Of a stretch of DNA of 45,475 bases, positions 6,694 through 42,317 are shown in pieces. How positions within the stretch are numbered: the first letter of the stretch is position 1; each line of letters starts with the position of its first letter. The notes below the pieces were generated by a model. The model was not told where the DNA came from. It did not search any database and was given only the letters and a program-made list of their open reading frames with translations. Source of the stretch: a virus; IMG/VR virus record IMGVR_UViG_3300032294_001387, positions 1-45,475 of that record; one strand, written 5' to 3'. The translations under genes were made by a program, and so were the position numbers.

Positions 6694-7756
6694 ACTTTAA
6701 TAATCCTACAATTTTTTTGTTGATAGGACCTACCCATCTACAATGTTTATTCAAAACATCTATAGAATCTATGATAACAGATCTAACTTTTTCTGCTTCT
6801 TCCATTGTATTGACATTAACGCCATACCACCATGTTTTATCGTTTTTGTCCAATGGTTCTGTTACAATCTTAATTATATCTGGTTTTAGAGTCTTAGTCA
6901 ACGGAAATATCACACGAGGATGTGTTCCATCTTCTACGTCTCCAATTTTAAATTGTTTTTTAAGATTATTATTAAGATCAATTTTATTTCTCACTTCATC
7001 AAGACCACTCTTTGGTAAGAATCCTAATTCGGTTGTCTCGCCATCGGAGAAAGTTAATCCATCTGCACCGGACTTATCAACAACTACATAACCGAATGTA
7101 GAACCAACTTTAAAATGTTTAGATACACTCTTAACATCTGCATATGTTGTTACACTGTTAAAATAATCCCACAATCTACCATAATTGTTTATCTTGTTAT
7201 TACCTTTTAAATCGTTAGAAGGAGATATCCACGTAGAAGGTGTTACCATAGCAATAATACCATTATCATTAGTCCATGTAGTAATTGACTTACTTAAAAA
7301 TATAGTCCAAAGATTCTCAGATAATACTTCACGCTGACCTTCTTTTTTATTTTTCTGATAAGGAGGATTACCAACAATTACATCAAACTTCATATCGTCA
7401 AACCCTCCCGCCAGTGCGTCTTCATTGTATATAGTAGTATCATTCTCTGCCAGCTTAGATATCAGAGATGCAGCAATAGTTGCTTTCTTCTTATCAATAT
7501 CATTTCCGTATAACATATTCTCTACAATATGCTTAGGCGAATGGCCATGCTGGCGCAATTTATCGTAAGCAACGATAAGAAACGTACCATATCCACAAGC
7601 AGGATCAAAGATAGTCAGATTAGGGTTAGACCAATCAACATCTAACTTATCTATCATCTCTTTAACAAGAGAAGTAGGTGTGTTATTGAGGGCACCAGAA
7701 CCGTAAACTCCGCTGATGCCTTCAATAACTTTTAGTGTGCTACTAACTGTAGGCAC
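6683..7756 (-). CDS. N6-adenine DNA methyltransferase, 357 aa
   Basis: SAM motif I DPACGYGTF (residues 51-59), LYGNDI (motif II) and catalytic NPPY (130-133) place it with gamma-class N6-adenine methylases of the Eco57I/type I M group. The C-terminal 200 residues would be target recognition. It lies 2 bases downstream of the helicase-nuclease gene, forming an R-M-like operon. It may modify phage DNA or act with the helicase. Confidence 0.88.
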   Translation of the reverse strand: MPTVSSTLKVIEGISGVYGSGALNNTPTSLVKEMIDKLDVDWSNPNLTIFDPACGYGTFLIVAYDKLRQHGHSPKHIVENMLYGNDIDKKKATIAASLISKLAENDTTIYNEDALAGGFDDMKFDVIVGNPPYQKNKKEGQREVLSENLWTIFLSKSITTWTNDNGIIAMVTPSTWISPSNDLKGNNKINNYGRLWDYFNSVTTYADVKSVSKHFKVGSTFGYVVVDKSGADGLTFSDGETTELGFLPKSGLDEVRNKIDLNNNLKKQFKIGDVEDGTHPRVIFPLTKTLKPDIIKIVTEPLDKNDKTWWYGVNVNTMEEAEKVRSVIIDSIDVLNKHCRWVGPINKKIVGLLKYVG

Positions 7757-7758
7757 GA

Positions 7759-15509: not shown

Positions 15510-16271
15510 ATGAGTACAGTAACTACTACCGCTGTTGCGGAAAAGTCAGATGTCGTTGATCTTCGTGGAATGTGGATAGGACTTGGACTCCTAAACGTAT
15601 TCTATCTAATTGTCAGAGTTTATGAGCAGGTATACGGCTGGAGGGCTGGACTTGATTCATTCGCACCAGAGTTTCAGACATATTGGATGTCTATTCTCTG
15701 GACAGAGATTCCACTTGAGCTTGTATCAGGACTCGCTCTTGCTGGTTATCTTTGGAAGACAAGAGATCGTGACATTGATGCAGTTGCTCCCCGTGAAGAG
15801 ATGCGTCGTCTTGTAACCCTTGTTCAGTGGCTCGTTGTATACGCAGTAGCAATTTACTGGGGCGCTTCGTTCTTTACTGAACAGGACGGTACCTGGCATA
15901 TGACTGTTATTCGTGATACTGACTTTACTCCAAGTCATATCATTGAGTTCTATATGTCATATCCAATTTACTCAATCATCGCAGTTGGTGCTTTCTTTTA
16001 TGCTCGTACCCGTATTCCATATTTCTCTCATGGATACAGTCTGGCATTCTTGATTGTAGCTATCGGACCATTTATGATTATCCCTAATGTTGGTCTCAAC
16101 GAATGGGGTCATACATTCTGGTTCATGGAAGAGCTGTTCGTTGCTCCGCTTCACTGGGGCTTCGTGTTCTTCGGCTGGATGGCTCTGGGTGTATTTGGTG
16201 TTGTCCTACAGATTCTCGGACGTGTTCATGCCCTAGTTGGTCGTGAAGGCGTTAGACTTCTGACTGAATAA
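15510..16271 (+). CDS. pmoC: Particulate methane monooxygenase subunit C (PmoC), 253 aa
   Basis: Membrane subunit of the copper enzyme that oxidises methane to methanol. Ligands are intact: Asp126, His130, His143 (EQDGTWH...DFTPSH) and Asn197, His201, His215 (LNEWGH...APLH), matching Asp156/His160/His173 and Asn227/His231/His245 of M. capsulatus PmoC. Signature GWRAGLDSFAPEFQTYW and WKTRDR are present; six or so membrane helices. ATG 15510 follows AAGGAG; a TTG just before is less likely. No pmoA or pmoB nearby, so it must join host subunits. Wording is closest, from memory, to alphaproteobacterial PmoC. AmoC is the related alternative but the motif wording fits PmoC. Confidence 0.95.
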   Translation: MSTVTTTAVAEKSDVVDLRGMWIGLGLLNVFYLIVRVYEQVYGWRAGLDSFAPEFQTYWMSILWTEIPLELVSGLALAGYLWKTRDRDIDAVAPREEMRRLVTLVQWLVVYAVAIYWGASFFTEQDGTWHMTVIRDTDFTPSHIIEFYMSYPIYSIIAVGAFFYARTRIPYFSHGYSLAFLIVAIGPFMIIPNVGLNEWGHTFWFMEELFVAPLHWGFVFFGWMALGVFGVVLQILGRVHALVGREGVRLLTE

Positions 16272-18172: not shown

Positions 18173-20650
18173 ATGTCAAGATTTTATACAAGTGTCTTAA
18201 GACGTGGTAATGAGTTATATTACAGAGGATATGATAAGGGTCTTCGTGTAAAAGAAAAAATAAAATATAAACCTTATCTCTTCCTTCCTAAAGCGGATGG
18301 TAAATACAGAACTATCGACGGCAAGCCTGTCGATAGGATAGATTTTGATTCTATCTCAGATGCTAACGATTTTATCAGCCGCTATCAAGACGTATCAAAC
18401 ATGGATATGTATGGATATGAAGTTTTTTCATATGTATACATATATGACAACTTCAAAGGAGATATTGATTATGACCCTAAAATGGTCAAAGTTGGTATTC
18501 TCGATATCGAGTGTGCTGCTGACGACGGTTTTCCTGATATTCAAAGAGCTGATAAGCCTCTTACAGCTATCACTCTTCGCTCTCGTGGCCGTAATTATGT
18601 TTTCGGCTGTGGCGAGTTTCATAGCAGAGACGATCAAACTTATTATATTAAGTGTGAAAACGAGCATGAGCTAATCTATCAGTTCATAGATTGCTGGCAA
18701 AAACTCGATATTGATCTTTTAACAGGATGGAATATCGAGTTTTTCGACATCCCTTATCTTATCAATCGTATGAATATTGTTGTTGGTGAAGGTGTTTCTC
18801 GTAAACTTTCGCCATGGAACATTATTCATGAGAAGAGCGTAGAATTCCGTGGCAAGTTAAACCAGAGTTATCATATCTTTGGTCTTGCTGTAATGGATTA
18901 TTATCAGCTTTATCGTAAGTTCACTTTTGGTAATCAAGAATCTTATAAACTTGACTACATTTGTTCTATCGAAATTGGTGAAAAGAAACTTGATTATTCT
19001 GAATACGGTAATCTGTTAGAGCTCTATAAAAACAATCATCAAAAGTTTATTGAGTATAATATTCGAGATTGTGAACTTGTAGACAGACTCGATGACAAGA
19101 TGAAATTTCTTGAGCAGATTATGGCGATCGCCTATGATGCTAAGATCAATATTGCTGATACTCTTACAACTGTTCGTGGCTGGGATGTTATTATTCATAA
19201 CTATCTTAGAGAACAGAATATTGTTATTCCCAGACTAAAGAAGCAGGAGATGACAGAGTCTCTTGTTGGTGGTTATGTTAAAGAGCCTAAGATTGGGTTG
19301 AGTAAATGGGTTGTGTCTTTTGACTTGAACAGCCTGTATCCTCATCTCATTATGCAATATAATATTTCACCAGAGACATTTGTAGAGAGATTACATGATT
19401 TTCCTTCAGTGGATTCTCTGTTGAAAAAAACAAGCGATTATGAATATAATGACGAATGGTCTTATGCTGCCAATGGCTGTTGTTATCGTAAAGACAAGCA
19501 GGGATTTCTTCCTGCTCTGATGGAGAAGATGTATAACGATAGAACCAAGTATAAAAAGTTGATGCTTGAAGCGAAGCAGCGTTATGCAGATAATCCTAAT
19601 GAAGAGGATTCTAAGTTAATTGCTCGTTATCACAACATGCAAATGGCGAAAAAAATCCAGCTAAACTCTGCTTATGGCGCATTAGGTAATCAATATTTCA
19701 GATGGTTCAACTTTGATCATGCAGAAGCTATTACAACTTCTGGACAGCTGTCTATTCGTTGGATTGAAAACAAAATCAATGAATATATGAATCGTCTACT
19801 CAAAACTGATAAAGTAGATTATGTTATAGCATCAGATACAGATTCTATCTATGTTACAATGGAATCGTTAGTCGAGCGTTTGCCTTCTAAGGATGAGAAG
19901 GTTATTGTAAACGCTATTGACAAATTCTGTGAGAATAAGATTCAGCCTTATATTGATAATTGTTATCAAGAGCTCGCAGAATATATGAATGCGTATCAGC
20001 AGAAGATGCAGATGAAGCGTGAAACTATCGCCAACAAAGGTATCTGGCGTGGTAAGAAAATGTATATTCTGAATGCTTGGAATATTGAAGGCGTTCAGTA
20101 TAATGAACCTGTTCTTAAGATGCAGGGCATTGAAGCGGTTAGATCTTCAACTCCTCATGCTTGTCGTGAGAATATCAAAAAAGCGTTGAATATTATTATG
20201 AATGAAGACGAAGAGACTCTTATCAAGTTCATTGAAGATTTTAGAAAAGAGTTTATGCAGATGCCTTTTGAACAAGTAGCGTTCCCGAGAAGCGTAAAAG
20301 GGTTTAGAAAATATACTAAGACGAGTGGTTTGCTTTATGATAAGGGCACACCTATTCATGTTAAGGCAGCGTTGGTGTTTAATAGTATGTTGATTAAGCA
20401 TAATGTGAAAAACATTCAACCTATTGCTGATGGAGATAAAGTAAGATTCGCTTATTTAAAAGTTCCTAATCCTATTGGTGAAACTGTTATCGCTGCTCCT
20501 GATGAAATGCCTAAGGAGTTCGATATTGACAAGTATATTGATAGAGAGTTACAGTTTACTAAGTCTTTCTTAGATCCTCTTACGTCTATTGCGGATGTTA
20601 TTGGTTGGAAAACTGAACATATCTGCACATTAGAAGATTTCTTTTCATAA
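18173..20650 (+). CDS. 43: DNA polymerase, family B (T4 gp43-like), 825 aa
   Basis: Replicative polymerase with proofreading. Exonuclease motifs: DIE (Asp111-Glu113), GWNIEFFDIPYL (about 185), YNIRDCELVDRL (about 295). Polymerase motifs: DLNSLYPHLIM (from 384), QLNSAYGALGN (from 496), SDTDSIYV (Asp555 and Asp557). Length is slightly shorter than T4 gp43 (898 aa). GGAGG ribosome binding site before ATG 18173. Next to uvsX and the helicase, as in T4-type phages. No intein or split seen. Confidence 0.97.
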   Translation: MSRFYTSVLRRGNELYYRGYDKGLRVKEKIKYKPYLFLPKADGKYRTIDGKPVDRIDFDSISDANDFISRYQDVSNMDMYGYEVFSYVYIYDNFKGDIDYDPKMVKVGILDIECAADDGFPDIQRADKPLTAITLRSRGRNYVFGCGEFHSRDDQTYYIKCENEHELIYQFIDCWQKLDIDLLTGWNIEFFDIPYLINRMNIVVGEGVSRKLSPWNIIHEKSVEFRGKLNQSYHIFGLAVMDYYQLYRKFTFGNQESYKLDYICSIEIGEKKLDYSEYGNLLELYKNNHQKFIEYNIRDCELVDRLDDKMKFLEQIMAIAYDAKINIADTLTTVRGWDVIIHNYLREQNIVIPRLKKQEMTESLVGGYVKEPKIGLSKWVVSFDLNSLYPHLIMQYNISPETFVERLHDFPSVDSLLKKTSDYEYNDEWSYAANGCCYRKDKQGFLPALMEKMYNDRTKYKKLMLEAKQRYADNPNEEDSKLIARYHNMQMAKKIQLNSAYGALGNQYFRWFNFDHAEAITTSGQLSIRWIENKINEYMNRLLKTDKVDYVIASDTDSIYVTMESLVERLPSKDEKVIVNAIDKFCENKIQPYIDNCYQELAEYMNAYQQKMQMKRETIANKGIWRGKKMYILNAWNIEGVQYNEPVLKMQGIEAVRSSTPHACRENIKKALNIIMNEDEETLIKFIEDFRKEFMQMPFEQVAFPRSVKGFRKYTKTSGLLYDKGTPIHVKAALVFNSMLIKHNVKNIQPIADGDKVRFAYLKVPNPIGETVIAAPDEMPKEFDIDKYIDRELQFTKSFLDPLTSIADVIGWKTEHICTLEDFFS

Positions 20651-20951: not shown

Positions 20952-21995
20952 ATGTCGCTAAAAGAAAAACTTATCAAAAACTCAACAATTGAACTAACAT
21001 CAACTCTTACAGATTCAAAAGTATATACTAAGAAAGATATGATTCAAACACCTGTGCCTATGATTAACGTGGCACTGTCTGGCTCTATTGATGGTGGTAT
21101 TACTCCTGGTCTGACTATGCTTGCTGGGCCATCTAAGCATTTCAAGACTGGCTTCGCTCTTCTACTAGCTTCTTCGTTCTTGAAGAAGTATGCTGATGGT
21201 GTTATTCTGTTCTATGATTCAGAGTTCGGTACACCTCAGTCTTATTTCAATAAGTTTAACATCCCATTAGACTCTGTTGTTCATACACCTATCACTGATG
21301 TTGAAGAACTGAAGTTTGATATTATGAAGCAGCTGAAAGAGATTACTCGTGAAGATAAGGTTCTTATCATCATTGATTCTATCGGTAATCTTGCTTCTAA
21401 GAAAGAAGTTGAAGATGCTCTGAACGAGAAGTCTGTTGCGGATATGTCTCGTGCTAAGCAGTTGAAGTCATTGTTCCGTATGATTACACCGCATCTTACA
21501 CTCAAGGATATTCCTCTTGTTGCAGTTAATCATACTTATAAAGAAATCGGCATGTTCCCTAAAGACGTTGTCGGCGGTGGAACTGGTGCTTACTATGGCG
21601 CTGATAATATTTGGATTCTAGGAAGGCAGCAGGATAAAGATGGCACAGAGATTCAAGGGTACCATTTTGTCATCAATATTGAGAAATCCCGTTATGTTCG
21701 TGAAAAATCTAAGGTTCCGATTACCGTCAGTTATGAAGGCGGCATTAATCGTTGGAGCGGTCTTCTCGATATTGCCATCGAAGGCGGTTATGTGGCTAAA
21801 CCGAAAGTTGGGTGGTACGCCAAAGTGGATAGAACCACTGGGGAAGTGGATGGAAAGAACTTCCGAGCGGCTGATATCGTGGACAGTAAAGAATTTTGGT
21901 TGACAATCTTCAAGGAAACTGATTTTGCTGCTTACATCAAGCGTAAGTATTCGCTTGATACAGAAGGTTCATTAGTTTATGATGAGGAAGAATAA
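20952..21995 (+). CDS. uvsX: UvsX-type RecA recombinase, 347 aa
   Basis: Forms filaments on single-stranded DNA for recombination-dependent replication. Walker A-like GPSKHFKT (residues 59-66) is the form typical of T4-type UvsX; ILFYDSEFGTP and LIIIDSIGNLA are the Glu-containing and Walker B segments; VVGGGTGAYYGADNIW lies in loop 2. Length fits UvsX (about 390 in T4, shorter in cyanophages). Its stop overlaps the next ATG by one base. Confidence 0.95.
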   Translation: MSLKEKLIKNSTIELTSTLTDSKVYTKKDMIQTPVPMINVALSGSIDGGITPGLTMLAGPSKHFKTGFALLLASSFLKKYADGVILFYDSEFGTPQSYFNKFNIPLDSVVHTPITDVEELKFDIMKQLKEITREDKVLIIIDSIGNLASKKEVEDALNEKSVADMSRAKQLKSLFRMITPHLTLKDIPLVAVNHTYKEIGMFPKDVVGGGTGAYYGADNIWILGRQQDKDGTEIQGYHFVINIEKSRYVREKSKVPITVSYEGGINRWSGLLDIAIEGGYVAKPKVGWYAKVDRTTGEVDGKNFRAADIVDSKEFWLTIFKETDFAAYIKRKYSLDTEGSLVYDEEE

Positions 21996-22666: not shown

Positions 22667-24082
22667 ATGAGCATCGAAAGAATAATTCTTTCTAATTTAT
22701 TATTCAATAATGATTATAACAGAAAAGTAATTCCTTTTCTTAAAAGCGAATATTTTCAAAATTATCCAGAGCGTGTTGTCTTTGATATTGTCGATGAATA
22801 TGTTAAGAAGTATAATTCTTTCCCTTCGATAGAAGCATTGGCTATAGATCTCTCTAACAAAGAAGGTCTAAACGATCAAGTATTCAAAGATAGCAAAGAT
22901 ATTATTTCTTCTTTGAATAACGATTCAACTACTAAGTTAGATTGGCTTCTTGATCAGACAGAGAAGTTCTGTCAGGATAAATCGCTTTATCTTGCGATCA
23001 TGAAGTCTATTAAAATAATGGATGAAAAAGATGGATCAATCTCCAAAGGAAGTATACCAGGAATCCTTACGGACGCTCTCGCTGTCTCTTTTGATACCCA
23101 TATTGGTCATGACTTTCTGGCTGATGCAGATGAGAGATACGAGTTCTACCATCGTAAAGAGAAAAGAATTCCCTTCGATCTTGACTACTTTAACGTCATT
23201 ACCAATGGTGGATTGCCGAACAAAACTCTCAATATCGCACTCGCAGGTACAGGTGTGGGTAAATCGTTATTCATGTGTCACTGTGCCGCAGCAAACCTAT
23301 CAAAAGGTCTCAATGTATTATACATTACATTAGAGATGGCTGAGGAGAGGATTGCAGAACGTATAGACTCTAATCTTCTGGATATTAGTATTGAAGAACT
23401 TGAACTCATTCCGAAGCAATCTTATGATACTAAGATAGAAAAACTCAGATCAAAGACACAAGGCAAGTTGATTATTAAAGAATATCCTACTGCTTGTGCT
23501 GGGTCCGCGAACTTTCGTCATCTCCTGAATGAATTGAAGATTAAGAAAAACTTTGAACCTGATATCATCTACATTGATTATCTAAATATATGTTTGTCAT
23601 CAAGGATTCGTCATGGAGCCAACGTCAATTCTTATACCCTTGTCAAAGCAATCGCAGAAGAACTCCGTGGGTTGGCAGTTGAGTGCGACGTCCCTATCGT
23701 CTCGGCAACTCAAACAACTCGAGGAGGCTATTCGAACTCAGACGTGGGACTGGAAGATACATCGGAATCCTTTGGACTCCCAGCCACAGCTGATTTTATG
23801 TTTGCACTCATCTCCAGTGAAGAACTTGAAAGTCTCAACCAGATCATGGTTAAGCAACTCAAGAATCGCTATAATGATCCTGGGACTAATCGTAGGTTTA
23901 TTGTTGGGATTGACCGTAGCAAAATGCGATTATATGACGTTGATCAATCCGCTCAAGAAGGTCTTACAGATGGACCAAATATAAGACCAGTCTTTGATAA
24001 TAGTAAGTTTGGTGAAGAAGAAAATGAGCGAGGAAAACCGAAAACGAAATTCGATAAAGCGAAGTTTGCAAATTTTAAATAG
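22667..24082 (+). CDS. 41: Replicative DNA helicase (T4 gp41/DnaB-like), 471 aa
   Basis: Hexameric 5'-3' helicase of the phage replisome. N-terminal helical domain (1-150), then RecA-like core with Walker A GTGVGKS (194-200), VLYITLEMAEERIAERID (H1a), DIIYIDYLNIC (Walker B) and VSATQT (H3). Pairs with the primase at 41283. AAGGAGAATAA before the ATG. The acidic-basic tail (KPKTKFDKAKFANFK) may contact partners. Confidence 0.95.
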   Translation: MSIERIILSNLLFNNDYNRKVIPFLKSEYFQNYPERVVFDIVDEYVKKYNSFPSIEALAIDLSNKEGLNDQVFKDSKDIISSLNNDSTTKLDWLLDQTEKFCQDKSLYLAIMKSIKIMDEKDGSISKGSIPGILTDALAVSFDTHIGHDFLADADERYEFYHRKEKRIPFDLDYFNVITNGGLPNKTLNIALAGTGVGKSLFMCHCAAANLSKGLNVLYITLEMAEERIAERIDSNLLDISIEELELIPKQSYDTKIEKLRSKTQGKLIIKEYPTACAGSANFRHLLNELKIKKNFEPDIIYIDYLNICLSSRIRHGANVNSYTLVKAIAEELRGLAVECDVPIVSATQTTRGGYSNSDVGLEDTSESFGLPATADFMFALISSEELESLNQIMVKQLKNRYNDPGTNRRFIVGIDRSKMRLYDVDQSAQEGLTDGPNIRPVFDNSKFGEEENERGKPKTKFDKAKFANFK

Positions 24083-24741: not shown

Positions 24742-24742
24742 A

Positions 24743-24749
24743 CTAAATA
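24743..24749 (+). promoter_or_regulatory. Late-type promoter of the structured RNA
   Basis: CTAAATA, seven of eight positions shared with the late box counted as NTAAATA, 8 bases before the predicted RNA start at about 24757. Confidence 0.5.
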
Positions 24750-24756
24750 ATAACAT

Positions 24757-24897
24757 GAGAAATATGTAGTCCCTGCAATCGGGACAGCGGCAAGTGCCAC
24801 AGTATGGAGGGCATCGGAAAAGTCTGGAGTAAACGGTGGGGTTCCGCCAGACCATATTTCTATCTATATTACAGGGGAGGGCGAAAGCCTTCCCCTT
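24757..24897 (+). ncRNA. Candidate stand-alone structured RNA, about 140 nt
   Basis: No gene fits 24742-24939. Ends pair in a perfect 9-bp stem, AGAAATATG (24758-24766) with CATATTTCT (24853-24861). Inside: GTCCC/GGGAC (24769-24773, 24781-24785), GGC/GCC (24789-24791, 24796-24798), and GTCTGG/CCAGAC (24822-24827, 24847-24852) enclosing CGG/CCG. A terminator closes it and a late-type promoter starts it. Pieces such as GGCAAGTGCCAC and AGTCTGGAG faintly recall cobalamin riboswitches, but key parts are absent. Not a tRNA. Confidence 0.65.
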
Positions 24898-24900
24898 TTT
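24874..24900 (+). terminator. Rho-independent terminator with GAAA loop
   Basis: GGGGAGGGC (24874-24882) / GCCTTCCCC (24887-24895), 9 bp with one G-U pair, GAAA tetraloop, then TTTTT. Separates the structured RNA from the virion genes. Confidence 0.9.
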
Positions 24901-24906
24901 CATTAT

Positions 24907-24914
24907 TATAAATA
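24907..24914 (+). promoter_or_regulatory. T4-type late promoter of the virion block
   Basis: Exact TATAAATA, 26 bases before the first virion gene (24940), right after the terminator. Confidence 0.8.
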
Positions 24915-24939: not shown

Positions 24940-25575
24940 ATGAAGAAATTTACTGATCATATCTTTGAAGAGAAAAAGGATCCTACGTCCGATACATTTC
25001 ATGCTTTTGACATCGATGATACTTTATTTCATCATGACAAGAACAAACTCCGTATACATGTTAAAAATCCTAATGGTCGCCGTGTAAGAACTCTTACTAC
25101 AAAAGAATACGCAAACCATACACTGGATCCTGGGCATACTTATGATTTCACAGAGTTCAAATCCGCAGACACTTTCAAAAAATCAGCCAAACCTATTCGT
25201 AAGATGATTGCGAAGCTGAAAGCGATTCATAAAAACAATAAAAATGTAGAGCTACTTACAGCAAGATCAGACCTTGACGACAAGGACAAATTCGGTCATT
25301 ATATGAATCAGTTCGGTATAGATACCAACGAGATTCATGTTCGTCGAGCAGGTAATCACGAAGAAGTTCCAGGTCATGTAGCAAAAGCAATGATTATGAG
25401 CGACCAGATAAATAAGAATGGATATAAAAAAGTTCACTTATACGACGATTCAGAGGCAAACTTAAAAGAGTTTCTCAGGCTCAAAAAGAAACACCCAGAG
25501 GTGGAGTTTCATGCCCATCATGTTCAACACGATCCTGAGACTGATAGAGTCGTTGTAACTACAAGGAAAGTATGA
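24940..25575 (+). CDS. HAD-like phosphatase with capsid-targeting N-terminus, 211 aa
   Basis: HAD motif I FDIDDT (Asp24, Asp26), motif II region VELLTARSD, motif IV HLYDDSE, so a phosphatase or phosphohydrolase; the substrate is not evident. Residues 1-10 (MKKFTDHIFE) match the T4 internal-protein targeting signature, with predicted cleavage after Glu10. The same gene order with a HAD protein in the late region occurs in cyanophages (recall). GAGGAACTC before ATG. Overlaps the next gene by four bases. Confidence 0.8.
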   Translation: MKKFTDHIFEEKKDPTSDTFHAFDIDDTLFHHDKNKLRIHVKNPNGRRVRTLTTKEYANHTLDPGHTYDFTEFKSADTFKKSAKPIRKMIAKLKAIHKNNKNVELLTARSDLDDKDKFGHYMNQFGIDTNEIHVRRAGNHEEVPGHVAKAMIMSDQINKNGYKKVHLYDDSEANLKEFLRLKKKHPEVEFHAHHVQHDPETDRVVVTTRKV

Positions 25576-26975
25576 TGCACAGTTTCTCTGAATATCTTCA
25601 AGAAGCGGCTAAGAAGAAAGCAGCTAAAAAAACAAGTGGATTTAGTACTGGAGATACAGCGGGTAAGTTGTTTGAACTTCTTAAAGGGTATCATCAGAGT
25701 AGAAATGAATTTCCTAAACATTACAGAGCCGAAGGAAAAACTCCTAAAGATATTCATGATACAATGGCAAAGAAAATGTTTGGCGATGATTTTGAAAACA
25801 ATGAAGAATATAAAAATTTGGTTCAAACAGCGAAGATAGCTTCAGAACATAATACAAGATACAACGAATTAGAACATGGCCATGATCCTTCTCAGGGATA
25901 TCAAAAAGTTGCCTGGACTTCACAACCTTCAGATCACGAATCAGAAACAGGCGTTAATGATCCAAACTCTGTTGCAGATTCTATTGCTACTCTGCATCAT
26001 GGTCAGAAAGTTGGTCATTCTGACAAATTAACCGCTGTCAATAAGCCTGTCAATTACAAGAATCCTGGAGTAAAAACTTTTTCTGCTATGTCAGGCGCTG
26101 ATCTTTCTGGTGTTGGCGACGCTCACGCTGAGTTGCTTAGAAAACATGATATAAACAGTGGCGATAAAGGATATCTGAAATGGGCTCAATGGAAAGGTAA
26201 AAGACAAGACGAAAAGGCTAAGAAAAAAGGAATATACTACGAACCAAGTGATGAAGAAAGAAAAAAAGCAGAAGAAATAGAAAAGTCATCTGCTCTTGTG
26301 AATCAAGAAGTTGCCAGAAGAATGCATGGTGGATTTTCTTCTATAGCTGCAGCCGATCGTCAAAATGGCACTACAAATCTTAGAGATGCTATTGAAAAAG
26401 CTGTTGCTGGTCCAACACACTTAAGAACTTCGGTTACTCATACTGAAGCAAATCCTGATGGTTCTCATCATAGAACAACAGTATACGATTTGCATGATCA
26501 TGTAAATCAATATCTAAACCATTTCGATAACTATCATGTTGAACCAGAACACAAAAAAGGTTTGTCTTCTGTAGCTATTTACGGTCATTTTAGACACCCA
26601 ACAGACCCTAACCATCCAATGAATGGTAAAAGAATGAGGGTTGCAAATATTTCTGTGTACTCTGGTGGAAGACCAAACAACGTCAGTCCTCGTGGTGCAA
26701 TAACATTGCCAAGCGAACACCATAAAGAAATAGTTTATCAAAATCATGTAAGTAGCGATCCACAGATGCATACTTATAATGAACCAAAGGGTAAAACACC
26801 AATAAGAACTTTTTCTCAACAAACAGCTGCAGTTCCTGCCAAAACAAAAAAAGTTTCTCCGGGTGGTTTCGGAGAACATAGAGGAGATGGTCCATATGTA
26901 TTTGACCCACACGAGCACAAGATGCATCGTGTCGATGAAGTTGGTGGACTTTCATGGAGAGGACCAGGAGAATAA
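25572..26975 (+). CDS. Virion-associated protein with capsid-targeting N-terminus, 467 aa
   Basis: No catalytic family recognised. Starts MMHSFSEYLQE; from the second Met (25575) the first ten residues HSFSEYLQE fit the targeting signature with cleavage after Glu. A Lys/Ala-rich linker follows (AAKKKAAKK), then a His- and Asn-rich body (DPSQGYQKVAWTSQPSDHESE) and a long region with conserved-looking strands (LSSVAIYGHFRHPTDPNHP). Likely packaged in the head, by its signal and position. Confidence 0.7.
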   Translation: MMHSFSEYLQEAAKKKAAKKTSGFSTGDTAGKLFELLKGYHQSRNEFPKHYRAEGKTPKDIHDTMAKKMFGDDFENNEEYKNLVQTAKIASEHNTRYNELEHGHDPSQGYQKVAWTSQPSDHESETGVNDPNSVADSIATLHHGQKVGHSDKLTAVNKPVNYKNPGVKTFSAMSGADLSGVGDAHAELLRKHDINSGDKGYLKWAQWKGKRQDEKAKKKGIYYEPSDEERKKAEEIEKSSALVNQEVARRMHGGFSSIAAADRQNGTTNLRDAIEKAVAGPTHLRTSVTHTEANPDGSHHRTTVYDLHDHVNQYLNHFDNYHVEPEHKKGLSSVAIYGHFRHPTDPNHPMNGKRMRVANISVYSGGRPNNVSPRGAITLPSEHHKEIVYQNHVSSDPQMHTYNEPKGKTPIRTFSQQTAAVPAKTKKVSPGGFGEHRGDGPYVFDPHEHKMHRVDEVGGLSWRGPGE

Positions 26976-26976
26976 T

Positions 26977-28173
26977 ATGTTAGATTTCAGAACGTTCTTA
27001 ACAGAAGCTGAGGCAGAAGGTAAAAAGCTAAAGCATCTTACTCATGTCGAAGATCATATATTTGATGGTCACGAAGGAGTAGGTAGAGCAGACGCCCACC
27101 TCCGTGGAATGCATGATATGCTGATGGGAAAGAAAGCACCGCTTCATGTCTCTGACAAATACGATGGCGCTCCTTCTATTATCTTCGGTCAGCATCCAGA
27201 GACTGGCCAGTTCTTTGTATCAACTAAATCAGCTCATAATAAGAATCCAAAGATAAACTATACAGAAGAAGATATTGATCGCAATCACGGTCACGCTCCT
27301 GGCCTCGCTGAAAAACTAAAACATGCTCTTAGACATTTACCTAAGATTATGCCTAAAAATGGTGGTGTATATCAAGGCGATCTTATGCACACTGAAGGGG
27401 ATGCTAAGACTAAAGATGGTATGACAACAGTCACTCCTAATACCATTACTTATGGAGCTCCTGCTGATTCTGAAGAAGGTAAAGCATTCAACAAGAAATT
27501 AGGTATAGTTGTTCATACTCAAAATGCATTGAAAGATGCTCGACCATTAGATGCAAAAACAAGAGCTTCTTTTGGTCAGAGTTCTGATGTCAATAACATT
27601 GATCCCACAATGCAAATGAACCCAGAAAACTATACAGAAGAAGAAAGAAAACAGTTTCTTGCTCATATGCATGCTGCTAGAAAAACCTATGCTTCAATGA
27701 AACCAGAAGCAATGGAGGCTCTGGAAGGTCATTCAGTGCCTATTCAAGCACATATTAATAATATGGTAAGAACTGATGGCACTCCTTCTGTTGACGGATA
27801 TATACAGCATCTATCTGATAGACATAATAAAGAAGTAGAAAAGCTAAAGACTCCTGCTGCCAGAGAACGTAAAACTGCTGCACATGCACAAGTACTTGAT
27901 CATATTATGCAGAACAGAGAACATTTTGATAAAGCTCTGCAGCTGCATAATCATCTAACAAACGCTAAGAACGTTCTTGTAAATGTCATGGAAAAGAATG
28001 CTCCATACGCTCATTCTATTGGCGATCAACCAACAGGCAAAGAAGGAACTGTTGTAGTAGATAGAGAAGGCAATGCTTCGAAACTAAACAACAGACAAGT
28101 ATTCAATAAACTAAATGCACTGAAAGGCGCATTCTCTCAGAAGAAACAACCAGAGGCGTTTGACGAAGAATGA
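26977..28173 (+). CDS. Ligase-like nucleotidyltransferase with capsid-targeting N-terminus, 398 aa
   Basis: Start 26977 (MLDFRTFLTEAEAEGKK) follows AGGAGAATAAT; the targeting signature occupies residues 1-10. Then KYDGAPS (Lys61, Asp63, Gly64) looks like the KxDG nucleophile motif of ATP-dependent nucleic acid ligases, followed by FFVSTKS, GVYQGDLM (motif III-like), EGTVVV (motif IV-like) and ASKLNN (motif V-like). The family appears to be the DUF6267 group of T4-type phages (recall). Enzyme activity is unproven; motif order supports the fold. Confidence 0.7.
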   Translation: MLDFRTFLTEAEAEGKKLKHLTHVEDHIFDGHEGVGRADAHLRGMHDMLMGKKAPLHVSDKYDGAPSIIFGQHPETGQFFVSTKSAHNKNPKINYTEEDIDRNHGHAPGLAEKLKHALRHLPKIMPKNGGVYQGDLMHTEGDAKTKDGMTTVTPNTITYGAPADSEEGKAFNKKLGIVVHTQNALKDARPLDAKTRASFGQSSDVNNIDPTMQMNPENYTEEERKQFLAHMHAARKTYASMKPEAMEALEGHSVPIQAHINNMVRTDGTPSVDGYIQHLSDRHNKEVEKLKTPAARERKTAAHAQVLDHIMQNREHFDKALQLHNHLTNAKNVLVNVMEKNAPYAHSIGDQPTGKEGTVVVDREGNASKLNNRQVFNKLNALKGAFSQKKQPEAFDEE

Positions 28174-29096
28174 AAAGATTCAAATATCATCTAAAAGAAA
28201 ACGCTGTAGTTGGGCACCATATCACATTTGGTAGAGGCAATCCATTTCATGAGATGCATGCTCAGCTTGGTAATCATGTAAAGAATTCTGCTGAAGATGA
28301 GGGCGCTGGGCACTCTGTTATTCTTTCTGGTAGTTCTGGTGATATCAAAAACCCACTAACTCCTGAACAGAAACTAAAACATGCGCAAAGAGCCATGCCA
28401 GGCGTGAATGTAGTTGTTGCTGATAAAGCTGCTCCTACATTGTTGCATCATGCGGCAAAACTACATCAAGAAGGTGTGAATGATCTTGCTGTTCATGTTG
28501 GTTCTGATCGTGTAAACGAGTTTCAGGATCTATTGAACAAATATAACGGGACTCATGATAAAGCTCTGTATAACTTCAATAGAATCCGTGTTCTACCATT
28601 CGGAGACGAACGAGCAGATAGCGATGAAGGAGCCGCTGGATTTTCTGCCTCGAAAATGAGAGCTCTGGCGGCTGTTGCATCAGATACATCTCCGGAAGGT
28701 ATTTCGGCTCGTAAACAGTTTCATGCGATGGCTCCACAGGCTATGACTCCTGAGCAGAAAGATGAAATGCTTCGCGACACTCAGGCAGGTCTACAGGCAG
28801 CAGCTGTTCCTAAACCCAGAAAGAAAAAAGTAGTAGCCGAATCAACTACTACTGCAGATGTTGCTGGTATGACAGACGACAGTGGATTTGATGCTATGCC
28901 AGACGATGTGAACGCTGGCTTTGCTGGTATGGTAAATAAAATGAACGGTATGTCTTCTGTCAAGTTCAATCAGACTTATGACCCTGAGACTCGTATGCCC
29001 AGCGCAATCTCTAAGAATGTTAGGCAATTATTCTCAAGAGGTCATGGACCAGCAGCTGCAAGAGCTTTTTCGAGAAAAAAGAAGCAAGACTCTTAA
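28170..29096 (+). CDS. Cytidylyltransferase-like protein with capsid-targeting N-terminus, 308 aa
   Basis: MKRFKYHLKE (targeting signature), then GRGNPFHEMH (21-30), the GxxNPxHxxH form of the nucleotidylyltransferase superfamily, and FSASKMR (about residue 166), the matching ISxTxxR motif. Such 'cytitidyltransferase' proteins are standard late-region genes of T4-type cyanophages. The substrate is unknown. The C-terminal third (after 215) is unrelated and may be structural. ATGA overlap with the previous gene. Confidence 0.78.
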   Translation: MKRFKYHLKENAVVGHHITFGRGNPFHEMHAQLGNHVKNSAEDEGAGHSVILSGSSGDIKNPLTPEQKLKHAQRAMPGVNVVVADKAAPTLLHHAAKLHQEGVNDLAVHVGSDRVNEFQDLLNKYNGTHDKALYNFNRIRVLPFGDERADSDEGAAGFSASKMRALAAVASDTSPEGISARKQFHAMAPQAMTPEQKDEMLRDTQAGLQAAAVPKPRKKKVVAESTTTADVAGMTDDSGFDAMPDDVNAGFAGMVNKMNGMSSVKFNQTYDPETRMPSAISKNVRQLFSRGHGPAAARAFSRKKKQDS

Positions 29097-29172: not shown

Positions 29173-30399
29173 ATGTATAAAGACGATAATGATCCTCAGC
29201 TAAACTGTGAGAAGTCTGCCGTAGACTTACTTGATAACAAAGCGAAACTATCGCTATATAAAAAATCGTCAGAAACAGGTATTCCGATCAATGTCCTGGA
29301 AGAAGTCTTTATCAGAGGCTATGCTTCCTGGGACGGAGATTTTTCTAGAAATCCAGTACAATTAGGATTCAATCGCGTCAACTCATTCGTGGCTGGCGGA
29401 TACGCATCACAGCTGGATGAAGACCTAAAGAAAGCCTGTTGGAAAGGTTACGAAGCCGTTGGTATGAAAAATAAAAACGGCAAAAAAGTTCCTAACTGCG
29501 TTCCTGTAAAAGAAGGAATCGCCGACAATCCTATGAAAAAGCCAGAACTACCTAATCTTGCTAAGAAAGCAGCACAGGGTGGTGGTATAGGTAATATAAT
29601 CAACAAAGGCCCTGGTCAAAGTATAGCTGCATCGCAAGGCAGAATAAAAGGCAAACTTGCTCCTCAACCTATAGAAAATATGAAAAATCCTATGCAACGC
29701 GAAGAAACCGTTGACGAGGCAATGTATCAGGGCAGAAGCGTTGAACTCAATAAACCAATGAAAGGCGACGTAAAGAAATCTAAAGTATACGTCAAGGATC
29801 CTTCAACAGGTAACGTAAAGAAAGTCAATTTCGGAGACAAGACTCTATCAATCAAGAAAGATCAGCCAGACCGTAAAAAATCCTATTGCGCAAGATCTGG
29901 TGGTCAAGGAAATCTTAGAGATAAAACTTCAGCAAACTATTGGTCAAGAAAAGCATGGAACTGTTCAGAAGAAACAGTTGATGAAGGAATGAAAGATAAT
30001 GCTAAGAAAGTTGCTCGTACTCTTGGTACTGTCGCTGCTCTTACTGCTCCTCATGCTATGAAACATGCTGGTAAAGGTTCAGACGCTGCATTCATAGCAG
30101 CCAAAAATCAAGCACCCTATGCTCTTGCAACCGCTGCTTCTTACCTCAATCCGCATTCAGCTGTAATGAACGCTCTTCCTGGCGTTGTTTCTTCTACTGA
30201 GATAGGTAAAGAAGATGAGTTCGCTCGTCAGAAAAAATACGGAAACAAAAAACCAGTCAAAGAAGAAGAGATTGAACAGACAAAGAAGAATCTTCTGGAT
30301 GGCACCAAACAACGTGCAGATTGGTTGAAGAACTCAACACCAGGTCAGACAACAAAGGTCATCAAAAAAGTTGTGAAAGAGGCGTTAGATAATGAGTAA
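29173..30399 (+). CDS. Virion-associated protein, 408 aa
   Basis: Start 29173 (MYKDDNDPQLNCEKSA) has AAGGGA upstream; the ATG at 29107 is rejected because it overlaps a late promoter. Two modules look familiar from other T4-type phages: ACWKGYEAVGMKNKNGKKVP (residues about 90-110) and KKSYCARSGGQGNLRDK...SRKAWNC (about 235-270, DUF6321-like, recall). The C-terminus ends in a basic helix. Located between packaged proteins and Dps, so probably virion related. Confidence 0.7.
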   Translation: MYKDDNDPQLNCEKSAVDLLDNKAKLSLYKKSSETGIPINVLEEVFIRGYASWDGDFSRNPVQLGFNRVNSFVAGGYASQLDEDLKKACWKGYEAVGMKNKNGKKVPNCVPVKEGIADNPMKKPELPNLAKKAAQGGGIGNIINKGPGQSIAASQGRIKGKLAPQPIENMKNPMQREETVDEAMYQGRSVELNKPMKGDVKKSKVYVKDPSTGNVKKVNFGDKTLSIKKDQPDRKKSYCARSGGQGNLRDKTSANYWSRKAWNCSEETVDEGMKDNAKKVARTLGTVAALTAPHAMKHAGKGSDAAFIAAKNQAPYALATAASYLNPHSAVMNALPGVVSSTEIGKEDEFARQKKYGNKKPVKEEEIEQTKKNLLDGTKQRADWLKNSTPGQTTKVIKKVVKEALDNE

Positions 30400-30832
30400 A
30401 GAACTAGTTCAAACAATGAAAGTTGCTCTTGCTGATACATTTTCTTTCTATCTGAAAGCTCATAACTTTCATTGGAATGTTACTGGTCCTGATTTTGAAG
30501 AATATCATACATTTCTTGGTAGATTGTGGGAAGAAACCTTTACAGCTGTAGATTTAATCGCCGAAGGAATAAGAACCTTAGATGCTTTTGCTCCGGGTTC
30601 TCTTACAAGATTTAAAGAACTATCTACTATAGAAGACGATACAAGAATCCCAGAAGCTTCTGAAATGATAGCTATCTTAGAAAGAGACAATGAGAAACTA
30701 CTCGTGTCTCTTAATAAAGCATATTTACAAGCCGAAAAAGATAAAAAGTTTGGCATTTCTAACTTTATACAAGATCGTATCACAGCCCATGACAAACACG
30801 GTTGGATGCTTAGATCATTTAAAAAGGCGTAA
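30392..30832 (+). CDS. dps: Dps-like ferritin, 146 aa
   Basis: Dodecameric iron-oxidising, DNA-protecting ferritin relative. The ferroxidase site is complete: His27 (FHWNV), His39 (EYHTFL), Asp54 and Glu58 (AVDLIAEGI), with the spacing 12/15/4 of bacterial Dps. Length fits Dps (about 150-165). No DNA-binding Lys tail is obvious. Overlaps the previous stop by eight bases and has no own promoter, so it is made late with virion proteins and may be packaged or protect phage DNA from oxidants. Confidence 0.93.
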   Translation: MSKELVQTMKVALADTFSFYLKAHNFHWNVTGPDFEEYHTFLGRLWEETFTAVDLIAEGIRTLDAFAPGSLTRFKELSTIEDDTRIPEASEMIAILERDNEKLLVSLNKAYLQAEKDKKFGISNFIQDRITAHDKHGWMLRSFKKA

Positions 30833-32006: not shown

Positions 32007-34739
32007 ATGGCTAAAACATTCGCAGAAGCAATGGCTGAAGTTCAAAATAGAGCCAACATGCTACGTAAAGAAATTCATGCAGAAGCATGGGGTGGTGAAC
32101 TTGCGCCAGGTGGTAGAGGTATTATTGTAAATGAAAAACCTCTCCCTTCTAGTGAATTAGAAGCTCAAATTGCTGAAGTTCATGCTCAGAGAAACCAGTC
32201 AGTTAAAGATATGACTAAAGAAAACTGGGATGAGACTATACCAGTTACTGATATCGCTTCTGTAGAACATATCAACAAAGTTGAAGAGGCTAAGAAAGCT
32301 ATGACTGTAAATAAATCATCTAATCTTTTAGATCAGTGGAAAAAGAATAACATCCCACAGTCTGGTGCTTTAAATGTGCCTATTCCTACTATGAAAGAGC
32401 CACCATTGGTTAAAGAAGATGATGTCAATGAATGGAAATTGAGTGATATTTATGAACCTATGCTCAAGAAAGCACAGGATTCTATAAGTTCAAGCAATTT
32501 GGACAAAAGAGCAGATGATTTCAAAAACATTCCAAGAACAATAACAAGAGAACCTGGTTCTCCGGAGGCAAAACAAGCTGCCGCTGAACTGAAAAGAGAT
32601 AAAGCTGCTCCTTCTGTTGGTGTCGGTTCTGGTACCAGAGAAATTCAGCGTCTTGCCAATCGTGGAGATACGAACGCACAAAACGCTATCGCTGATGCTA
32701 AAAAGTTTATGCAAGATAACCCTGAGGGAGCAAAGGCAGCAAAGGCTATCGCAGCAGAGGCTCCAAAACCAACTAAATCATCTCCTACAAAGAATGTTGT
32801 AGCCCGAGATAAAGCTGCTCCTTCTGCGGCTAAACCTGCAGGATCAAGCGGATCTTCTTATAAAATAAACAGAGGAGACACTCTTTCTTCTATTTCTAGA
32901 AAAACAGGTCTTTCTATTCAACAGATAGCTAAACAGAATAATATCAAAGACGTAAATAAAATAGCTGCGGGTAGAACATTAAATCTTAGCGGTTCAAAAC
33001 CTGCTGCTCCTGCCTCTCCTTCTGGTGCACTGGGATTACGTGGTCCAAGTTCAAGTGCAATGGCCACACCACGTCCAAGCACTGCTGGTGCCGTAGCACA
33101 AGATACAAAGCCAAAAGTTACGACTGCACCGCTTCCACCGAGACGTCCTGCGCCTAAAGTGAACACTACACCATCTGGTGGCACTGGTGCTGCTGGTGGT
33201 AATCCAACTCCTGTTGGTGGTAGCATCATCGATCGTCAGAACAGAAACACTACACCAAATCAGAGCCGTCCAGCACCTGCTCCTGCTCCTGTTCCAAAAA
33301 TCGAGCGTCAGCAGAGAAATACTGCTCCTTCTCAGAACAGAGGCGTTGTAGCTCCTCCTGTTGGTGGTTCTGTACCTCCACAAACATCAACATCATCAAC
33401 AGCTATATCTCGCCCACAAGACACCAGAGGCCAAGAAAAATTCATGAAAAAAGAACTGAACAATTCTTATGAGAATCCACTAATCGCCGCTTTCTTTGCA
33501 CTTCAGGAAAAAGAAGGTAATATGTTTGCTGAAGCTAAGAAGAAAACAAGTTCGCAGGCTAAGAAATATTCAGAAGGCGACAAAGACGAGATCAACGACG
33601 ATCCAGGTAGCCCAGGAGCAGTGCCAACTGGAGGCTCAGCTATCGCGGAAAGCATTCAGAAAGCTGCTCGTGTTTCTATGTTTGATCCTGCACAGGGGTA
33701 TTCAAGAACAGCAGGATCAGCTGATGGAGCTGCATCGCTGAAAGATAGAATCGCAGCAGCATGGAATAATCTTTCAACTGGTTTTCCTGCAACTCAGCCA
33801 GCTGTTAATGGTATGACAGATGAAATGGCTGCAGATGCTGCTGCTTTGAAAGAAGAGACTGAAGTTCTCGACGAAGCTCCAAAGAAGAAAGAGCATGAGC
33901 TTGCCAGACTTGCAGCTGCAGCTATTTCAAGAGGTCATAAGGTAACTAAGTTACCAGCTGGTAAGGCTGAAGGTTGGGCTGATAACAATGTCAAGTCTTC
34001 AATGGGTGGTGGTGTTGCTAAAGTCAACTCACAATCAGGAACTAAGACTAAAGCTCGTTTTAGAGAAGAAGTTGAAGTTGAAGAAGAAACTCTTGAAGAG
34101 AAGCATGTGTATCACGTTTCATGGGGTGTTGGATTAGATCACGAAGTGACTGCTCGTCATGGCGATGAAGCAGTCAAGAAAGCTAAATCGGCTCTTATTG
34201 CAAAAACTCCTAAACTAAAAGATCCTAAGTACGCCGATACTTTTAATAAGAAACCAACTGTTCATAATATGTCAAAAGAGCGTACTTCACAGAGAATGAG
34301 TAATAATGTTCAAGAAGAACAGATCGAAGAAGGTAAAGCTAACGGTCACAAGATGACTGATATGGATAAACACCTGAAGGGTTATTATAACGTATTCGGT
34401 AGACATCCTATTCAGAAGAACGATAAGCTCGCTTCAAAAGTATGGAATAAACCCGCTGCTGACATGAGAATGACTAAGTCTGGTAAGATTCATGGTCAGG
34501 ATCAGAAAGCTAAAGCTAATGAAATCAAGGGTCGTCTTGGTTATCATACTAAGGCTAAACTCCCAGAGGGTGTTGAGTTTTCTGAAGAAGAACTGAATCA
34601 TATCTACAATATTATGGAAAACAACCCAGAGGGTAATGCTATCGCTGGTAGAGATCCTAACACTAAACAAGGTGATTCGGATAAGTCAACAGTTGGTGGC
34701 ATAGCTAACGAAAGCAAAAAGAATGGCATTCGTCGTTAA
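32007..34739 (+). CDS. Large LysM-containing virion protein, 910 aa
   Basis: One LysM domain (about residues 283-327: YKINRGDTLSSISRKTGLSI...), which binds peptidoglycan. Around it are long Pro/Ala/Thr-rich linkers (about 330-480) with repeats of DRQ/ERQ-NR-NT and RDKAAPS. C-terminal modules (HELARLAAAAISRGHKV, HVYHVSWGVGLDHEV) look like small folded domains found in other T4-type virion proteins. No catalytic residues seen. Could anchor the particle to the host wall or be packaged. AGGAAATTAAA before the ATG. Confidence 0.7.
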   Translation: MAKTFAEAMAEVQNRANMLRKEIHAEAWGGELAPGGRGIIVNEKPLPSSELEAQIAEVHAQRNQSVKDMTKENWDETIPVTDIASVEHINKVEEAKKAMTVNKSSNLLDQWKKNNIPQSGALNVPIPTMKEPPLVKEDDVNEWKLSDIYEPMLKKAQDSISSSNLDKRADDFKNIPRTITREPGSPEAKQAAAELKRDKAAPSVGVGSGTREIQRLANRGDTNAQNAIADAKKFMQDNPEGAKAAKAIAAEAPKPTKSSPTKNVVARDKAAPSAAKPAGSSGSSYKINRGDTLSSISRKTGLSIQQIAKQNNIKDVNKIAAGRTLNLSGSKPAAPASPSGALGLRGPSSSAMATPRPSTAGAVAQDTKPKVTTAPLPPRRPAPKVNTTPSGGTGAAGGNPTPVGGSIIDRQNRNTTPNQSRPAPAPAPVPKIERQQRNTAPSQNRGVVAPPVGGSVPPQTSTSSTAISRPQDTRGQEKFMKKELNNSYENPLIAAFFALQEKEGNMFAEAKKKTSSQAKKYSEGDKDEINDDPGSPGAVPTGGSAIAESIQKAARVSMFDPAQGYSRTAGSADGAASLKDRIAAAWNNLSTGFPATQPAVNGMTDEMAADAAALKEETEVLDEAPKKKEHELARLAAAAISRGHKVTKLPAGKAEGWADNNVKSSMGGGVAKVNSQSGTKTKARFREEVEVEEETLEEKHVYHVSWGVGLDHEVTARHGDEAVKKAKSALIAKTPKLKDPKYADTFNKKPTVHNMSKERTSQRMSNNVQEEQIEEGKANGHKMTDMDKHLKGYYNVFGRHPIQKNDKLASKVWNKPAADMRMTKSGKIHGQDQKAKANEIKGRLGYHTKAKLPEGVEFSEEELNHIYNIMENNPEGNAIAGRDPNTKQGDSDKSTVGGIANESKKNGIRR

Positions 34740-41282: not shown

Positions 41283-42317
41283 ATGGCTTGGTTAGATCAG
41301 AAATATATTGGTATCGTTGGAACACGACTAGAACGATTCAAGAAAAAGAGTAGCACACTATATAACTTTCGCTGTCCTGTTTGCGGAGACTCAGAATCCA
41401 ATAAGACAAAGGCCAGAGGATATATCTACCAGAAAGAAGGTAAGGCGATGTTCCACTGTCATAACTGTGGGACTACTTTAGGATTGCCTAACTTTCTTAA
41501 GATGATTGACATCAATATTTATAATGACTATCAGTTAGAAAAACTACAAGACTTTAAAGATACACATAAGAAAAAAGAAGATGACTTTCAGTCTATGGTA
41601 GAAAAGATGAGAAAGCCTGTCTTCATGACCAGTGGTCCTTTGAAGGGATTGAAGAAGGTTAGTCAGTTGTCTCCTGATGATCCTGTAAAGAAGTTAGTTG
41701 CAGACAGAAAGATACCGAATCCTTATCATGCTAAACTATTTGCTTGTCCTAATTTTTATCGTTTCGTCAATAATCTTGTTCCCAATAAGTTTTCAAGTGA
41801 AACTTTGGTTCGTGATGAGACGAGGCTTCTTATCCCTTTTCTGGATGCTAATAAGACTGTTCATGCCTTTCAAGGACGGTCTCTTAGATCAAACAGCAAA
41901 GTTAAATACATTACAATCGTTCTTAATGAAGATGTACCTAAAGTGTTCGGTCTGGACACTGTACGCTTTAACAGACCTGTATATGTTGTTGAAGGTCCGT
42001 TGGATTCTATGTTTCTTACTAATTCTATTGCTACAGCAGGCGGCGATCTTATATCTGCAGTAAAGAGTTTTGACAAAGAAAATCTTATCATAGTATATGA
42101 TAACGAGCCGAGGTCTAAAGATACAAAAAAGAAGCTTGAAAAAGCTATCTATAACGGTTATAATGTATGTATCTGGCCCGAGAACATCGAACATAAAGAT
42201 ATAAACGATATGTTTATTGCAGGTATGTCTTCGGAGTTCATCGAACATATTATCAAAACAAACACATACCGAGATTTGGCAGCAAAGCTGGCCCTGCAGA
42301 AATGGAGTAAAGTATGA
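41283..42317 (+). CDS. 61: DNA primase (T4 gp61-like), 344 aa
   Basis: Makes RNA primers for lagging-strand synthesis with the gp41-type helicase. N-terminal zinc ribbon CPVCGDS...FHCHNCG (Cys31, Cys34, Cys59, Cys62), then a TOPRIM domain with VYVVEGPLDSMF (Glu237) and LIIVYDNEP (Asp about 261). Length matches T4 gp61 (342). AAGGATTT before the ATG; ends with a four-base overlap to the next gene. Confidence 0.93.
   Translation: MAWLDQKYIGIVGTRLERFKKKSSTLYNFRCPVCGDSESNKTKARGYIYQKEGKAMFHCHNCGTTLGLPNFLKMIDINIYNDYQLEKLQDFKDTHKKKEDDFQSMVEKMRKPVFMTSGPLKGLKKVSQLSPDDPVKKLVADRKIPNPYHAKLFACPNFYRFVNNLVPNKFSSETLVRDETRLLIPFLDANKTVHAFQGRSLRSNSKVKYITIVLNEDVPKVFGLDTVRFNRPVYVVEGPLDSMFLTNSIATAGGDLISAVKSFDKENLIIVYDNEPRSKDTKKKLEKAIYNGYNVCIWPENIEHKDINDMFIAGMSSEFIEHIIKTNTYRDLAAKLALQKWSKV

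Follow-up and report, generated by a model that had tools for sequence, protein, structure and literature searches.

In bacteriophage T4, the internal proteins IPII and IPIII (and also IPI and Alt) carry an N-terminal capsid-targeting sequence, which in IPII and IPIII is a ten-residue peptide with aromatic residues at positions 4 and 7, Ile at position 8 and Glu at position 10. Targeting in T4 depends on residues 4 and 7 and processing on residues 8 and 10, the prohead protease gp21 cleaves by the rule (L/I)-x-E, and the propeptide of the capsid protein gp23 is 65 residues long (PMC9026906). The same source already suggests capsid targeting as a way for T4-like phages to load varied proteins, and it describes how, in the giant phages phiKZ and SPN3US, a prohead protease cleaves ejected head proteins (PMC9026906). 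Here we analyzed the whole IMG/VR virus record IMGVR_UViG_3300032294_001387 (45,475 bases; hereafter the window), a genome fragment without head genes in which four consecutive genes begin with a peptide of the T4 kind. The tagged internal proteins of T4 are small, basic and without known catalysis, whereas three of the window genes have enzyme motifs and one a predicted nuclease fold; unlike the T4 genes, moreover, the four are arranged consecutively as a late-type operon in the interval between gp41 and gp61. The giant phages differ from the window in their cargo and, in phiKZ, in an S/A-x-E cleavage motif; the DarA/Hdf proteins of phage P1 are further ejected head proteins. To judge from sequence, the simplest reading of the signal in the window is a capsid-targeting propeptide of T4 type.

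The N-terminal peptide of four consecutive genes

The tagged genes start at positions 24940, 25575, 26977 and 28170 of the + strand, with the peptides MKKFTDHIFE (24940..24969, gene 1), MHSFSEYLQE (25575..25604, gene 2), MLDFRTFLTE (26977..27006, gene 3, a DUF6267 protein) and MKRFKYHLKE (28170..28199, gene 4). An earlier note had proposed that the four share a gap-free, T4-like ten-residue signature, and this was confirmed by the start positions, by a gene caller that took no account of the motif and by comparison with T4 ipII and ipIII, whose N-terminus is MKTYQEFIAEA (AF158101). The simple gene caller picked the identical four starts, except for 25572 in gene 2, an alternative ATG that adds one Met; its counts are approximate, as 138 of the 183 annotated starts of cyanophage S-CREM2 were reproduced. 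In two of the closest relatives of the window (L008 and L009, of L007-L009), no upstream start codon is available for the gene 3 orthologue. All four window proteins have an aromatic residue at position 4, an aromatic residue or His at 7, Ile or Leu at 8 and Glu at 10; the residues at position 7 are H, Y, F and H, with His in two proteins, a regularity that the earlier note had not used. Orthologues in L007-L009 keep the key residues while other residues and synonymous codons have changed, and since the codons at the key positions vary, selection acts on the peptide rather than on the RNA.

Two versions of the motif were mainly counted. The three-position rule of the earlier note (aromatic at 4, Ile or Leu at 8, Glu at 10) was fixed before our analysis and is thus the cleaner test; it was applied to S-CREM2, T4, the window and L010-L088, which are DUF6267 loci, the best 80 of at least 599 (L008 among the 80). 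A loose pattern was used first, and the strict pattern, which requires F, Y or H at position 7, was defined after the matches of the loose pattern were known; S-SZBM1 and T7, lambda and N4 were scored by the strict pattern. By the three-position rule, 4 of the 72 called genes in the window match, as do 3 of 273 coding sequences in T4 (the known head proteins ipII and ipIII, together with 61.1) and 3 of 219 in S-CREM2; in L010-L088, 68 of 1245 genes start with it, and of the internal methionines in these loci 2 of 5776 do so. The strict pattern occurs at internal methionines 0 times in 262 in the window and 7 times in 5776 in L010-L088, and four or more matches in 72 genes have a probability of 2e-6 at the latter rate and of 0.008 at T4's rate of 3/273. 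The pattern was chosen after the genes had been seen, so independent tests weigh more. The first such test is a negative set: the strict pattern is absent from all 175 annotated coding sequences of T7, lambda and N4 (positions 1-50000). For the second, DUF6267 proteins were anchored by the domain alone, blind to the motif, with 28 loci lacking an anchored DUF6267 gene excluded, which left 55 distinct N-terminal extensions of at least 13 residues. The strict pattern is present in 36 of these 55 (shuffled mean 0.053, maximum 2 in 2000 rounds) and an [LI].E site in 48 (shuffled mean 14.8); Ser or Ala directly follows the Glu in 22 of the 36 matching extensions. Chance or composition, in the sense that short N-termini rich in K, F and E are frequent in such genomes, could be invoked on the grounds that these residues are common and the pattern was selected post hoc. 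This explanation is already contradicted by the controls, with an internal-methionine background of 0.03-0.12% versus 5-7% at gene starts, no match in the T7, lambda and N4 set, and 36 extensions versus 0.05 by shuffling, and we give it next to no credence.

The peptide also ends in what would be a protease site. In T4 gp23 the corresponding sequence is FGSFLTE|AE, in which Glu65 is the residue after which we take the cut to lie. The matching region in three cyanophage capsid proteins reads GSFLAE|AP, GLLTE|AP and GILTE|AA, and in four related contigs the capsid gene encodes L-N-E, Glu being residue 52 there. Trimming of the window proteins after Glu10 would fit both the (L/I)-x-E rule and these capsid sites. 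Among 11 long related contigs, gp21 and the capsid gene occur together in 4 and are both absent from the other 7, as they would be from fragments; the protease of S-SCSM1 served as the query, in place of the Pfam profile PF03420, which was silent in the controls too and hence uninformative.

Tagged homologues in cyanophage virions

The interpretation in the earlier note is supported in part. The proposed capsid targeting gains support from homologues in cyanophages whose virions have been analyzed by mass spectrometry (literature covered: PMC10665884, PMC3037559, PMC9602691, PMC9146016 with its Table 1, and PMC9391042). All four virion-reported cytidylyl/NMN-transferases that we examined, which are homologues of gene 4, begin with the peptide: MKNFSSFLTEA in S-CREM2, MRFRQFIIEAV in S-SZBM1, MKSFLQFLKEA in S-SCSM1 and MKKFSAFLNEA in S-SM1. 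The hosts of these phages are Synechococcus, and in the available portions of their papers a targeting peptide is not mentioned. In S-CREM2, where 52 of the 219 open reading frames (ORFs) were detected in virions (PMC10665884, Table 3), all three genes that satisfy the three-position rule, encoding a SAM hydrolase, an APH-like kinase and the cytidylyltransferase, are among those detected (P 0.013 over all ORFs, and 0.0027 among the 195 that are left after removal of 24 detected structural ORFs). The strict pattern adds ORF136, which was also detected, for a count of 4/4 that is partly after the fact. In S-SZBM1 the strict pattern selects 3 of 218 genes, and the transferase is one of 30 virion-detected proteins; pooled over S-CREM2 and S-SZBM1, 5 of 7 strict matches were detected (P 0.0035). 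S-CBWM1 (PMC10665884, PMC9602691) was excluded from the counts. Taken through these homologues, the sequence evidence makes packaging of the tagged window enzymes likely.

Other proteins illustrate the limits of the motif. In the S-SCSM1 record, genes 89-93, 95 and 97 of the gp41-primase interval are labelled as virion proteins and the strict N-terminal motif is present in the NMNAT-like 91 only; as most of these labelled genes lack it, other routes into the particle exist. One of them, S-SCSM1_93 (L100 46627-46836), has the motif at its other end, the C-terminus RTFKEFLEYIE; C-terminal copies numbered 5 among all called genes and are unconvincing. The virion-detected, Cas9-like nuclease ORF12 of S-CREM2 (L092 7704-10313) contains LRFASFMAEA, which spans residues 17-26, narrowly misses the pattern and may be a displaced targeting peptide or the result of a miscalled start; it was not counted, and neither was S-CREM2 ORF13, which has Leu at position 4.

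The location of the tagged genes recurs as well. In Syn9, S-SM1, S-SZBM1 and S-SCSM1 they occupy the stretch from gp41 to the primase, and in Melnitz-3 they follow gp41 immediately on its 3′ side; in S-CREM2 the transferase is found a few genes ahead of the primase, with ORF6, ORF14 and ORF136 elsewhere. T4 itself has gene 61.1 (L095 18966-19130) in the same gp61-gp41 interval, with the start MKTFKEFIKE; unlike the window genes it encodes only 54 residues and is annotated as hypothetical, and we know of no enzyme domain in it. The tag does not follow any one family: HAD relatives in L015, L016 and L056 are without it, and the transferases of Syn9, S-SM1 and S-SZBM1 are tagged while the DUF6267 proteins of the same phages are not. 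A tag that moves in this way between unrelated folds has the look expected of a sorting signal.

The position of this island amid replication genes would also suit an N-terminal helix for some other docking, for instance to the replisome, the membrane or a late transcription complex, with detection in virions reflecting carry-over. Carry-over after CsCl purification is named as a possibility for such enzymes by the authors of the S-CREM2 and S-SCSM1 studies, and two motif-bearing proteins of S-SZBM1, 191 and 192, are missing from its virion list. We nevertheless consider this explanation quite improbable, given the position-by-position match to T4 ipII and ipIII with a protease-type Glu followed mostly by Ser or Ala, the tag on every virion transferase examined, and the fact that in S-CREM2 the pattern also picks the virion proteins ORF6 and ORF14, which are distant from the replication island.

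Predicted enzymes as probable cargo

The earlier note had named enzymes (HAD, ligase-like and nucleotidyltransferase-like) as the cargo; motifs and family matches bear this out and extend it by a predicted nuclease. Gene 1 (24940..25575, +, 211 residues) encodes a HAD-type, PNK-like phosphatase that matches phrog_415, polynucleotide kinase (E 1.1e-6); no Pfam HAD match was obtained for it, and the DxD motif of this HAD/PNK-type 3′ phosphatase family (FDIDDTLF; D24 and D26) is invariant in all six aligned proteins. Gene 4 (28170..29096, +, 308 residues) is cytidylyl/NMN-transferase-like (phrog_3041, E 2.3e-36); the window protein itself matches no Pfam family, and it has the FGRxNPxxxxH-type motif of NMNAT/cytidylyltransferases, G21, R22, P25 and H30 being invariant in 11 of 11.

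Gene 3 (26977..28173, +, 398 residues) is a clear member of DUF6267 (PF19782, E 2.1e-81; 274.6 bits versus a curated cut-off of 27). Three elements, K61xDG, E356-G-x-V and K369, are invariant in 18 of 18 DUF6267 proteins, and we take them to be ligase motif I, motif IV and motif V, respectively. The predicted structure (pLDDT 87.7) gave a best VIA match of Z 8.6 to the Naegleria RNA ligase (3.8 Å over 184 residues), and among the matches listed 50 of 50 are RNA or DNA ligases; Foldseek matches were weak (best E 0.15, an RNA ligase). These motifs would place gene 3 in the RNA/DNA ligase superfamily of covalent nucleotidyltransferases, with a ligase fold predicted by the model. When solved structures were searched with profiles, nothing useful emerged for gene 2, the HAD protein or gene 3, for which no ligase was found, and the transferase gave a weak match.

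Gene 2 (25575..26975, +, 466 residues) has no sequence match in phage records, and back-translated patterns matched none in viral contigs; its relatives were obtained via the DUF6267 loci. Five of six relatives have the strict N-terminal pattern and the sixth (L017) a near-match, while D135 and S149-x-K151, candidates for the acidic residue and the x-K on the following strand that mark PD-(D/E)xK nucleases, are present in 6 of 7 aligned proteins and lost in L008. Its AlphaFold2 model (pLDDT 72.6) has no Foldseek match at E <= 0.001, and in VIA it scores Z 10.3 against HinP1I, followed by 9.3 and by 8.7 against MspI, with the next, unrelated row at 4.2. We are moderately sure in calling gene 2 a predicted PD-(D/E)xK nuclease, HinP1I/MspI-like. 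Many palindromes fall below expectation in the window (CCGG 17 versus 41 expected, CTAG 31 versus 101, GCGC 43 versus 68) and none of the 16 tetramers is absent, so site avoidance gives no clear sign of the gene 2 nuclease.

Across 54 tagged proteins, Pfam identified cytidylyltransferase-like (8), AAA_33 (5), zeta-toxin-type (4), DUF6321 (4) and DUF5824 (3) domains and single cases of adenylate kinase, SAM lyase, protein kinase and HAD, with overlapping family members; PADLOC assigned no family to any of the 54. The presence of the tag on unrelated enzymes speaks against a rival use of the peptide, in which it would bind the scaffold core for head assembly or lining and the proteins would be degraded or left behind rather than delivered as working enzymes. 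T4 core proteins are fragmented by gp21 (PMC9026906), and the signal proves docking at most. Such a role is improbable in our view, since the catalytic motifs of the DUF6267 and HAD proteins are kept without exception in the sets aligned above and two virion lists record 2 or 3 peptides for each transferase.

Putative late transcription, proposed mechanism and genome context

Directly ahead of the operon lies a structured RNA stretch (24742..24906, +; fold z -3.67, with 0 of 200 shuffles as stable) that matched no Rfam family at the gathering score. It includes an intrinsic terminator identified from sequence and fold, GGGGAGGGC-GAAA-GCCTTCCCC plus a T run (24873..24900, +), and a comparable hairpin and T run are found in relatives; part of the stretch around AAACGGTGGGGTTCCGCC is common to L010, nearly so to L017 and less so to L008 and L009. 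The terminator is followed by the T4-type late-promoter-like element TATAAATA (24907..24914, +), separated by a 25 nt gap from the first tagged gene; we presume this sequence to be that of the T4 late promoter. In L007, L008, L009, L010 and L017 the first base of the same element stands 31-37 nt ahead of the first tagged gene, and no TATAAATA-type element was found within 60 bases upstream of that gene in L012. In the near set (the window and L007-L028), the 60 bases upstream contain ATAAATA for 13 of the 47 tagged genes, compared with 35 of the 386 other genes (P 0.0006). The site, as read from sequence, would fit late expression amid early genes, which head cargo needs.

On the strength of these observations, we think it probable that the four genes encode a late-made enzyme kit that is provided with T4-type capsid-targeting propeptides, packaged, trimmed and injected. 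In this model the operon would be transcribed late from its own TATAAATA promoter, and the peptide would dock each enzyme on the prohead scaffold core via residues 4 and 7. The protease gp21 would then cut behind Glu10 at the (L/I)-x-E site, and the mature HAD phosphatase, nuclease-like, RNA-ligase-fold and NMNAT-like proteins would remain in the head with the DNA. By analogy with T4, the head enzymes could enter the next host alongside the DNA and be active from time zero, their targets being nucleic acid or nucleotides of the host or the phage; this virus would thus probably bring ready-made enzymes into its host.

Several observations, in addition to the caution of the proteome authors and the two missing S-SZBM1 proteins, weigh against this model. 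The T4 proteins ipI and Alt are both packaged and fall outside the pattern, which is thus not the whole signal. The loose pattern selects seven S-CREM2 genes of which three are not virion proteins (P 0.057 over all ORFs and 0.009 in the non-structural set), and DUF6267 proteins of Syn9, S-SM1, S-PM2 and S-SZBM1 are without the peptide. The window itself, as a fragment without head genes, gave no match to the S-SCSM1 protease. As for the promoter, TATAAATA occurs 7 times in the window versus 4.35 expected, barely above chance, and in L010-L088 ATAAATA precedes 15 of 89 tagged versus 101 of 1067 other genes within 60 bases (P 0.026), a weak enrichment.

T4 capsid targeting and the virion enzymes of cyanophages are already known; what is new is the link between the two, together with an enzyme operon of late type and cargo that is predicted to include a nuclease and a ligase-fold protein. 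In the open-licence library searched, DUF6267 included, we found no paper that links the peptide to these enzymes. The virion enzymes of cyanophages have repeatedly been indistinguishable from contamination for their authors, and a ten-residue signal shared with T4 would identify true cargo, make it readable from any T4-like genome and predict exactly where cuts should be sought when existing data are searched for peptides. The internal-protein idea of T4, which concerns small basic proteins, would also be widened to phosphatases, kinases, SAM hydrolases, ligase-fold enzymes and nucleotidyltransferases of common aquatic phages. More tentatively, and with somewhat more doubt than conviction, we speculate that a capsid-targeting code is common to the T4-like phages of environmental bacteria, that the gp41-gp61 locus (61.1 in T4) is its old loading dock, and that in the lineage of the window this locus loads a complete break-and-mend kit (restriction-nuclease-like, PNK-type phosphatase, RNA-ligase-fold and NMNAT-like proteins) that may be injected with the genome to cut host nucleic acid and, before phage genes are expressed, to mend tRNA or DNA that first-line host defences have cut.

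The surroundings of the operon are of T4 type, with genes for DNA polymerase B (18173-20650), UvsX (20952-21995) and the DnaB-like gp41 helicase (22667-24082) on one side and the gp61 primase (41283-42317) on the other. A gene at 15510-16271 (+) matches PF04896 (E 7.4e-109) and encodes a PmoC/AmoC subunit of methane/ammonia monooxygenase; among solved structures its best matches come from particulate methane monooxygenase, namely the PmoC subunit (E 7e-157). Freshwater phages of methanotrophs that carry pmoC have been published (PMC7674155), and the host of the window phage may be a methanotroph. At 6247-9843 (-), two N6-adenine methylase-like genes (Eco57I/N6_Mtase) adjoin a helicase with T5orf172 and ResIII domains, a group that resembles a modification or restriction-modification module in split form on a phage. 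Near the operon, on its 3′ side, lies a gene for a ferritin/Dps-like protein without the peptide (30392-30832, +; PF00210, E 1.9e-18; phrog_3636). The ATAAATA core also precedes the genes at 32007, 34961 and 36943 by 29-36 bases; the first of these (32007-34739, +) thus has its own late-promoter-like site and encodes a 910-residue LysM-domain protein with the N-terminus MAKTFAEAMAE, which differs from the capsid-targeting starts.

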